A stretch of 64,000 nt of DNA from positions 1-64,000 of the forward strand of contig NZ_VUNR01000006.1 in the NCBI RefSeq assembly GCF_009695585.1. Direction: 5' to 3'. Both the position numbers and the translations under genes were made by a program. Source of the DNA: Anaerovibrio slackiae. GTDB taxonomy: Bacteria; Bacillota; Negativicutes; Selenomonadales; Selenomonadaceae. Under the pieces are notes generated by a model. The model made no database searches. It was given only the letters and a program-made list of their open reading frames with translations, and was not told the origin of the DNA. This document shows positions 33,436 to 64,000 of this stretch, piece by piece (the stretch's first letter is position 1; each line of letters opens with the position of its first letter).

Positions 33436-33460
33436 CCTACCCCTCCTAAATTGTGCTTTA

Positions 33461-33643
33461 TACGACGTAATATGCCTTTAATATGACATGACAGTACCCA
33501 TGAAAACACGCTCGCGCTCTTAGCACAGCCTCACGCTTCTAAGCTCCTGCATCGCTTACGCTCGCACTCGCTAAGAAGCGAGGCTGCACTCAAGGTTTTC
33601 CTGGGGTACATATCATGTCATCCCCGGCATATTATGACGTATA
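33461..33643. repeat. Palindromic element A: GC-rich core flanked by inverted arms
   Basis: Left arm 33461-33499 and right arm 33604-33643 are imperfect inverted repeats (shared blocks: TAATATGCC, ATGACATGA, GTACCC). Between them is a GC-rich core of about 100 bp, itself foldable (CTTCTAAGC near 33535 against GCTAAGAAG near 33570). The core is nearly identical, in inverted orientation, to 63355-63430 and related to 62708-62805. It is the main content of the 33436-33734 gap, which also holds a perfect 7-bp inverted repeat, ATATGTT-ATAG-AACATAT, at 33666-33683. Confidence 0.85.
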
Positions 33644-33734
33644 TCGAATTATAACCGCCACTACGATATGTTATAGAACATATTTGTCAGATACTGTGGT
33701 ATACTCATACGTTATATACTCTATGTATATTTTG

Positions 33735-61438: not shown

Positions 61439-62437
61439 TTACAATAAAGCAGCTTTCTTTCCAATGTCTGTAACTTGTTCTGCTGTCAGCTTGGCTACTT
61501 TGGCAATAACATCAATGCTGACTTTTTCTTTCAGCATATTAGTTATCATCTCAGTTTTAGTTTTTTCAATGCCACGAGCTTCACCGATAGCAATACCGCG
61601 GGCTTCACCGCGAGCCTCAATGCCTAAACTAATATTGCACATATCGCTCATCTCCTCATCTAATTCTACAGTCATAGGGATAGAGTGGTCAAATTCCAAC
61701 CTGTTCTTTTTGTCTTCTACTGCCATATTGCTTAATAGAATGTCCATCATCCTGATAAGCTCATTGTTGCTTTTATCATAAGTTTCGTTTAAATGCACAA
61801 GAGTGACGTTTAGCAAATCATAGGCATAATCGATATTGAGCTTATTGTTGCCGTTATAAATAATCTCTGGATGCAATGTATATGATACGATAGAGTCTTT
61901 TTTATCATTGGGACAATCCATGCAAATCCAAATAGAATAGACCTTTTTGATATTATCATACTGAATTCTGTCTTCGCCCTTGTTGCTGAATTCAACTCCC
62001 AGCTGTGCTGAGATAAGCCTTGCTACATAGAAAACACCGCGCTTGACAATGCTATAGCCCGGATTGCTTTTCCTTTGTGCCTCAACATTGACGATGATTT
62101 TTGTCTGGCTGCCGTCAGGCAACCGCATGATAAAACGAATATCATAAAAAACCGTTCCCTCATCTTTTATGCTATCCTGGCAGTTTAACAGTACAGACTT
62201 GCTGTTACTCAGGCCGGGATTTACCCGTACGGAAGAAATCTCTATGCTTTCATGGTCAATAGAGGCTTCAATTTCAGCGATTGACATATTCCTGACTTCT
62301 GTAACGGTTCCTTTGACAGTCCGTGCCAGGATAGACATATTTGCCAATACACGCTTAATAGCTTGGTCGCATTTGATACGCTTTGCTTCGATTTCCAAAT
62401 CATCTGCAAGAAAATTATTTGTTTTTAACGGCTCCAA
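61439..62437 (-). CDS. Rpn-family PD-(D/E)XK nuclease/recombination-promoting protein
   Basis: 332 residues. N-terminal PD-(D/E)XK core: FYDIRFIMRLPDGSQ and IIVNVEAQRKSN supply D…E-x-Q. The C-terminus carries the GEARGEARGIAIGEARGIEK repeat and an amphipathic helix typical of Rpn/YhgA-like and 'transposase_31' proteins, which promote RecA-independent recombination and may limit phage. Start TTG, seven bases after GGAGG. Its gene has its own promoter and faces the palindromic region 62524-63725. Confidence 0.85.
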   Translation of the reverse strand: MEPLKTNNFLADDLEIEAKRIKCDQAIKRVLANMSILARTVKGTVTEVRNMSIAEIEASIDHESIEISSVRVNPGLSNSKSVLLNCQDSIKDEGTVFYDIRFIMRLPDGSQTKIIVNVEAQRKSNPGYSIVKRGVFYVARLISAQLGVEFSNKGEDRIQYDNIKKVYSIWICMDCPNDKKDSIVSYTLHPEIIYNGNNKLNIDYAYDLLNVTLVHLNETYDKSNNELIRMMDILLSNMAVEDKKNRLEFDHSIPMTVELDEEMSDMCNISLGIEARGEARGIAIGEARGIEKTKTEMITNMLKEKVSIDVIAKVAKLTAEQVTDIGKKAALL

Positions 62438-62508: not shown

Positions 62509-62579
62509 TATATTGGAAAATTCCAGTTTGTCGTAGTGCTTGATCGTTACTTCGGCGAGATATGTAAGGTTTATTGATT

Positions 62580-62933
62580 AGTGCAGGGGAGCTGTCAGAA
62601 AAACATCAGCATATATTCCAATGGGCGGTCACTTTTTTACATTGTTGTGTATAAACCTACTTACGGTCAGACCTTTTTATAGAGCCTCAGGGCAGTACCA
62701 TCGCAGGCACGCTCGCGCTACTATCCACGCCTAGCGGATGCTAAGCTCTCGCTTCGCCTTACGGCTCGCGACTCGCTAAGCACCGAGGCGCGTCTCAGTG
62801 CCGTGCGAATGGTACATGCCCTGATACTCTTTAAGAGGTCTGACACAAAATTTTCACAGATCTGCTTATAAAGTCAACCGCCCATTAAATTATCTGCTAA
62901 GAGTTACAATCTTGCGACAGCTCCCCACTCACT
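62580..62933. repeat. Palindromic element B
   Basis: Arms of about 120 bp pair with interruptions: GGGGAGCTGTC near 62586 and its complement near 62913; AATGGGCGGT near 62630 and near 62877; GTCAGACCT near 62667 and near 62838; CAGGGCA…GTACCAT near 62689 and near 62811. The GC-rich core is at about 62701-62810 and is a diverged copy of the core in element A. Confidence 0.85.
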
Positions 62934-62956
62934 TCTCAGCAAGTCCTTATATTTTG

Positions 62957-63275
62957 CCGTAGCAACATGATGATGCCTTACGAGCAAGCCTGAAAAGAGG
63001 GGACTAGGAGCTGGCGCAACCTGCAACTGCCAACCGCCGTATAAAATATAGTGCCATTAAGCAATTATATTGACTTGCAATACAATTAATTACCAACAAC
63101 CATACAAAATATAGGGGCTAGTAATTGACAAAATTTACAACTGCTGATGTTTATGCAACCAACTCTGCTGGTAATAGCAGATTGCCTTGCATAGTAGTTG
63201 GCAGTAGCAGGTCTCGTCAGCCTCCCCGCTCCCCCTTTTCAGGCTTGCTCGTAAAGTAGGATTAGTTGCTACAGC
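62957..63275. repeat. Palindromic element C
   Basis: Left arm 62957-63035 and right arm 63190-63275. They share GTAGCAAC, a 20-bp perfect block starting TACGAGCAAGCCTGAAAAG, then ACCTGC and ACTGCCAAC in the same order. The loop of about 150 bp is AT-rich, with two TA(C/T)AAAATATAG direct repeats, and lacks the GC-rich core. Confidence 0.85.
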
Positions 63276-63307
63276 TTCATACTAATTGGGGTGAGTTGAA
63301 TTATTCT

Positions 63308-63668
63308 GTTGTATCTGTTCAGACACAAAGAGGGACAGGTGCGGCATGTACCCAAAGAAAACCTTGAGTGCAGCCTCGCTTCTTAGCGAGTGCGAGCGTA
63401 AGCGACGCAGGAGCTTAGAAGCGCGAGGCGCAGGGGATGACGAAACCCTATTGACATGAATTAGTTTCGAGGATAAATCCTTGTATGCTAGGCGGAGGAA
63501 GAAGGCATGGTGGTTCCATGCCGACCGACGACAACAACGCAGACAAGGATTTAGACCGAAAATAATCATGGAAATAGGGTTTTGTCACCCCTCCGAGCGA
63601 GAGCGAGTTTTCTATGGGTACTGCCGCTACCTGTCCCTTTCCAATGTCTGAACAGAGTCCACGAAGTA
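63308..63668. repeat. Palindromic element D with nested inner hairpin
   Basis: Outer arms near 63313-63354 and 63614-63655 share TCTGTTCAGACA, GGGACAGGT and GTACCC. Inside is the GC-rich core (63355-63437) almost identical to element A, interrupted by an inner palindrome (63433-63490 with 63536-63592; shared AAACCCTATT and TAAATCCTTGT) that ends in a perfect GGCATGG-TGGTT-CCATGCC hairpin. Confidence 0.85.
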
Positions 63669-63729
63669 TCAAATTACGTCAGTCAGTATATGCACGAAGT
63701 AACGATCAACCACTACGACAAACTGAAAT

Positions 63730-64000
63730 TTAAAATAATGATAACTGCCCCTCTTTTTCCTCTGCAGGATTTTTCACAATTTTCAAATGCTCCGCCTTGC
63801 GCCTGGTGATTTTTTCATCTCCCCGCAGCTCACCTGATAAAATAGTGGAACACGGATTGTGCAGGGCGGCACATGCCTCCACCATTTTGGCATTGAAATT
63901 TGCATAGCAGTATGCACACAGGTGGCGGCAGGTATTGTACTGCCCTATATCCACGCTCTGCACACAGCCGCACTCCTGGCGCTGGTTGGCATCCTTGCCA
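63730..64000 (-). CDS. DUF1848-type protein, C-terminal fragment (runs off the right edge)
   Basis: The frame is open to the window end. About 90 residues are visible: the start of this part reads …[20 protein letters not shown], then [12 protein letters not shown], with clustered cysteines, the ending of DUF1848 proteins, which are thought to be radical-SAM-like or iron-sulfur. GTG at 63961 is an internal codon, not the start. The C-terminus is basic, then ends in GQLSLF. Confidence 0.75.

Follow-up and report, generated by a model that had tools for sequence, protein, structure and literature searches.

What occupies more than a kilobase of DNA with inverted repeats at several scales, one inside another, and with no gene? 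The block that raises this question lies close to one end of the window, the 64,000-nucleotide stretch of DNA that was analysed, on contig C56 of a host genome (G000) of 3.01 Mb in 66 contigs. The original prediction had left two readings side by side, elements inserted into elements or a branched RNA that the outer stem would close, and had proposed a comparison with the host genome and its relatives. That comparison uncovered a repeated family. The block is probably a composite member of a MITE-like family of mobile palindromes, interspersed and non-autonomous, from one Selenomonadaceae genus, whose members nest in and recombine with one another.

Bounds, fold and parts of the window element

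The predicted outer inverted repeat is real, and its limits needed a small correction: the element spans 62518-63731 (1214 bp), slightly wider than 62524-63725, and a repeat search gives terminal repeats of 37 bp instead of 31 (62518-62554 and 63695-63731), which are 95% complementary and enclose 1.14 kb. The ends are common to tens of copies. The left terminal repeat, AAATTCCAGTTTGTCGTAGTGCTTGATCGTTACTTCG (62518-62554, + strand), has an identical end type in other copies. The right one (63695-63731, - strand) also recurs, and its first bases, AA, make up the TAA stop codon of a DUF1848 gene on the - strand together with the preceding T.

Three palindromic arms fill the space between these repeats, as predicted, but they measure 404, 315 and 421 bp and not 320-360 bp. 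Arm 1 (62555-62958), defined by the predicted fold, is the palindrome of a left unit and carries at its tip a module core (CACGCTCGCGCT..CCTAGCGGATGCTAAGC..GCTAAGCACCGAGG, 62691-62806) that has separate matches of 92-93% in other copies. Arm 2 (62959-63273) is the palindrome formed where two units join; the inner end of a right-hand unit of ~395 bp makes up its right half. Arm 3 (63274-63694) is the palindrome of that right unit, framed by TCTGTTCAGAC / GTCTGAACAGA. Both arms 2 and 3 were delimited by the repeat search, the reading of complete copies and the fold. The tip of arm 3 holds a module, GAAAACNCGCTCNCGCTC...AAGGTTTTC (63357-63612, - strand), which is ~98 bp long elsewhere and is split here by a 165-bp hairpin (63430-63594). 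Most copies have 8 bp in place of this hairpin.

In the minimum-energy fold of 62518-63731 nearly every base is paired, giving the outer stem, the three arms and the 165-bp hairpin in arm 3. The fold energy is -566.9 kcal/mol, compared with -342.2±10.3 kcal/mol for 60 dinucleotide shuffles (z -21.9). Segments of equal length (1214 bp) from 28 other places in the window have a mean of -407, and the best of them reaches -516. The block is indeed non-coding: we saw no plausible gene inside the element, whose open reading frames are at most 95 aa long and merely read through stems. The element has no Rfam match, even at E<=1. Carriage by a phage or plasmid was rejected, as the element has no match in plasmid or phage records and its end motif is absent from IMG/VR.

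A PD-(D/E)XK (Rpn-like) gene at 61439-62437 adjoins the element. This gene family has 19 members in G000. Three of them (on C20, C25 and C56) have a module or element nearby, against about one expected by our own estimate, and the gene was rejected as a partner of the element.

A dispersed family of units, composites and nested modules

The DNA of the window element gives 261 local matches at about 40 places in its own genome, and the 14-base end motif AATTTCAGTTTRTM occurs there 63 times, compared with 0 times for the reversed control pattern. A pattern scan of a species-level genome collection, in which the relatives are Selenomonadaceae/Veillonellaceae MAGs, located the end AATTTCAGTTTRTCGTMGTG in only two other assemblies, JALFXV (SUG1110) and CAMFES, which correspond to the congeners G008 and G014. 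G011 and others have matches that are weaker or incomplete. Each of these three related genomes carries tens of family copies, and the counts are lower bounds, since contig ends often fall within copies. We paired the ends (AAATTTCAGTTT) in stretches that cover ~55 loci of G000, obtaining 35 paired-end elements in G000 loci and 13 in relatives. Element lengths run from 395 to ~1700 bp and cluster at 392-400, 460-553, 809-961, 1008-1080, 1214 and 1716 bp.

Complete copies reveal a unit of ~395 bp that consists of a type B end, a long hairpin arm and a type A end. The unit exists alone, and inverted pairs of units make up multi-arm forms of 800-1200 bp. Forms of 800-1000 bp are two units of ~395 bp in inverted orientation, joined head to head through their B ends; two half-arms then pair to create a middle arm, which is why an inverted repeat is seen to enclose three palindromes. 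The window copy belongs to these long forms, but its left unit is of a different subtype.

Other DNA (0.9-1.3 kb) separates the units at L035 and L101. At L101 (3867-5210, in G014) two units flank 1.3 kb with open reading frames of 119 aa and 246 aa, a possible passenger. A second, doubled end (AAATTTCAGTTTGTAAAAAG + AGATTTCAGTTTGTCGTAG) lies 20 nt further out at L026 (877-917), L065 (~905), L099 (1664) and L102 (1548), and is possibly the footprint of repeated insertion. Copies at L010 (~2558), L024 (~2910) and L036 (~3440) adjoin one and the same sequence, TTATATCATAAGTTTGRTATTRTGT, which is another small repeat or a regulatory site.

The ~98-bp module inside the arms is itself a repeated component, its end having 74 exact matches in G000. 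It also occurs apart from the long elements, at the tips of many hairpins with unrelated stem sequences. We compared 14 such host stems, among which three frame-type stems are mutually related: the distal arms match their own partner (mean score 10.7) better than those of other hosts (5.1), and 0 of 2000 permutations reached the observed mean self-complementarity. Only a minority of module copies contain the 165-bp hairpin, whose core is nearly invariant and whose stem varies yet stays paired. The window also holds a smaller relative in the queF-queC gap (33455-33660), a distinct palindrome whose tip bears the same ~98-bp module. A C-terminal fragment of a UDP-glucose dehydrogenase-like gene borders, at L018 (1892-2275), on a module that contains the 165-bp hairpin.

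Exchange at orthologous sites and position at gene ends

The nesting can be followed from species to species. At the L039 site, G008 (C36) has a bare transcription terminator, GCGGCAGGGCATGCCCTGCCGCTTTTTTT; in G014 (C132) the tip of this terminator stem holds the module; G000 (C2) has the module with the 165-bp hairpin within; and G011, another congener, has a short gap. The direction of change at this terminator, gain versus loss, is one that we infer. The outer stem at L157 is kept between G000 and G008 and the module type differs. In the queF-queC gap the outer stem is likewise kept between G000 and G008, with another module type in G008, and the G014 ortholog has a truncated module. Modules are partially deleted at L175 in G014 and at L183 in G008. 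The 3' end of purA has no hairpin in G000 and one each in G008 and G014, in opposite orientations and with stems that have diverged yet remain complementary.

Long elements differ in the same manner. The 165-bp hairpin is the difference between L013 in G000 (553 bp) and its G008 ortholog L100 (392 bp); L019 measures 1048 bp compared with 396 bp in G008 at the common site, and L035 1716 bp compared with ~400 bp; and at the site of the window copy G008 has an element of 903 bp that is oriented the other way. Inner parts that occur alone elsewhere, and that are present, absent or exchanged at orthologous sites, support the suggestion that elements have inserted into elements. The left flank of L030 and the right flank of L046 belong to two different copies in G000 but are joined in G008, which may reflect recombination between copies, with a MAG assembly error as the alternative. 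At C1:64290-71800 in G000 (L013, L044), element copies in opposite orientations lie at both ends of an extra segment; the two genes that bound it are 7 kb apart in G000, and G014, G011 and others have them as convergent neighbours.

One intergenic, module-bearing hairpin of ~160 bp (L179; G000:C18 ~34214, G008:C53, G014:C68) is ~99% identical in the three species, with diverged flanks. This conservation hints at a selected function or recent exchange. Most element sites are common to the three species, and therefore little recent movement is visible. For the long AAATTT-ended element itself, the shared sites compared include no occupied site with a clean empty counterpart: at L040, L042 and L047 a relative has no long element, and the gaps are too diverged for the junction to be read, because the intergenic DNA has drifted.

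Element ends have a marked relationship to genes. Among 148 distinct ends in the three genomes, 89 lie at the 3' end of a gene (orthologs being counted more than once), and for 30 of these 89 a T and the first two bases of the element form the stop codon (T|AA); the next most frequent distance accounts for 7. The G000-centred set has 18 of 55 gene-adjacent ends in this register. At two stop-codon ends the element contributes GA, yielding TGA. Proteins encoded by genes with T|AA ends terminate at the same position as their homologs in congeners, and in one of these genes the corresponding codon of G014 is TAG; the genes are therefore not truncated. At ends away from genes, T is favoured before AA (32 of 59) and C is avoided. 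The T|AA register is explained simply by an insertion preference, the alternative being that spacer DNA was eroded until no further base could be lost. Either end type can face the stop of a gene. The search for target-site duplications, a check proposed at the outset, was negative: in 45 elements the direct-repeat score is not above that of shuffled pairs. Inverted pairing of the flanks shows a weak excess (mean 2.44 versus 2.11±0.18).

Competing explanations, known systems and mechanism

A structured non-coding RNA, or a very large branched 3'-UTR or terminator RNA that is made when transcription runs on from the upstream gene into the element and that serves to stop transcription or to shield the mRNA, would account for the strong fold, for elements directly 3' of stop codons, for stems that vary between hosts with pairing retained and for the hyperconserved L179 hairpin. 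Selection on an RNA would favour G.U on one strand, but stem mismatches on the read strand are G.T in 428 cases and A.C in 431 (141 versus 169 in a second set; the copies are not independent). These equal counts leave the branched RNA of the original prediction unsupported, and the absence of an Rfam match, the ability of either end type to face a gene stop and the arms missing or exchanged at common sites also speak against it. We consider an RNA explanation unlikely.

The palindromes might instead be immobile, having grown in place from ancestral terminator-like hairpins by replication slippage and template switching and been homogenised by gene conversion. That most sites are common to the species, that target duplications are absent and that modules swap within fixed outer stems would all fit growth in place. 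It is hard to reconcile with tens of dispersed copies sharing identical ends and a 395-bp unit, with a purA hairpin found in two relatives and not in G000, or with a terminator site whose layers are discrete, shared modules as opposed to local growth; we judge it quite improbable.

REP-associated tyrosine transposases (RAYTs) are longer than the Y1 proteins of IS200/IS605. G000 does encode Y1-family proteins, but the full-length matches are open frames of 126-140 aa, as in IS200/IS605, and we saw none of their genes enclosed by a pair of ends; judged by length, the Y1 proteins of G000 are only of IS200 size, and a RAYT was sought there and not found. The family resembles REP/BIME sequences in being a mosaic of intergenic palindromes in modular arrays, with pairing kept while the sequence changes (PMC2817692). 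It differs in its far larger units (400-1200 bp), its long terminal inverted repeats, its different ends and in that no RAYT was found, and a short (20-40-nt) hairpin unit with a GTAG-type foot was not found, the units being at least 395 bp and the module ~98 bp long. We consider a REP/BIME-type mosaic spread by a RAYT very unlikely. A terminator-targeting group II intron (IIC) was discarded, there being no Rfam match (domain V/VI) and no large open reading frame for an intron-encoded protein.

The mobile palindrome family shares with MITEs the terminal inverted repeats common to dispersed, high-copy, intergenic copies with no capacity to encode a transposase. Unlike MITEs, it has no target duplications, reaches 1.7 kb, contains nested hairpins that are swapped and has ends locked to gene stops; lacking target duplications, it is MITE-like and not a MITE. 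As for a parent insertion sequence that would share its ends, no transposase gene or transposase-like open reading frame lies between paired ends in any copy read, the genome is fragmented at many copies, and no candidate mobilising enzyme was identified.

BOX elements have a modular build with tandem central modules. Like the BOX elements of pneumococcus (cf. PMC3049150), the family comprises small modular interspersed repeats in intergenic DNA, but its modules nest in hairpin tips and are not in tandem. The insertion sequences IS1397, ISKpn1 and IS621 insert into REP palindromes (PMC1525189), which parallels insertion into existing palindromes here, except that the inserted unit is a non-coding hairpin, stacked up to three deep, and that a host terminator is among the targets. 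Repetitive and double hairpin elements of mitochondrial DNA are also non-coding, potentially mobile and able to form multi-hairpin structures (PMC2800124); they differ in being mitochondrial, much smaller, mainly tandem and not nested. We found nothing specific on nested palindromes in Negativicutes in the open-access literature, and the family is apparently undescribed.

The following mechanism would be consistent with these observations. Units and modules may spread as folded hairpin DNA, with a mobilising enzyme presumably supplied in trans, and would prefer as targets the 3' ends of genes (T|AA) and the tips of hairpins, including terminators. Homologous recombination and gene conversion among the many copies would then swap and flip the arms, and pairing would be maintained at the level of DNA, not as a one-strand RNA product. 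Absent duplications and hairpin targets would suit a candidate enzyme that acts on folded single-stranded DNA. More tentatively, and with considerable doubt, the family may represent a new class of mobile palindromes that move as folded single-stranded hairpins and target hairpin tips (including those of host terminators) and stop codons. If so, elements of the new class would stack inside one another and be exchangeable like cassettes. The record of three species is one of large intergenic palindromes built layer by layer, including a foreign hairpin in the tip of a host terminator, and the coincidence of element ends with native stop codons means that these repeats rewrite gene 3' ends and terminators in these anaerobes.
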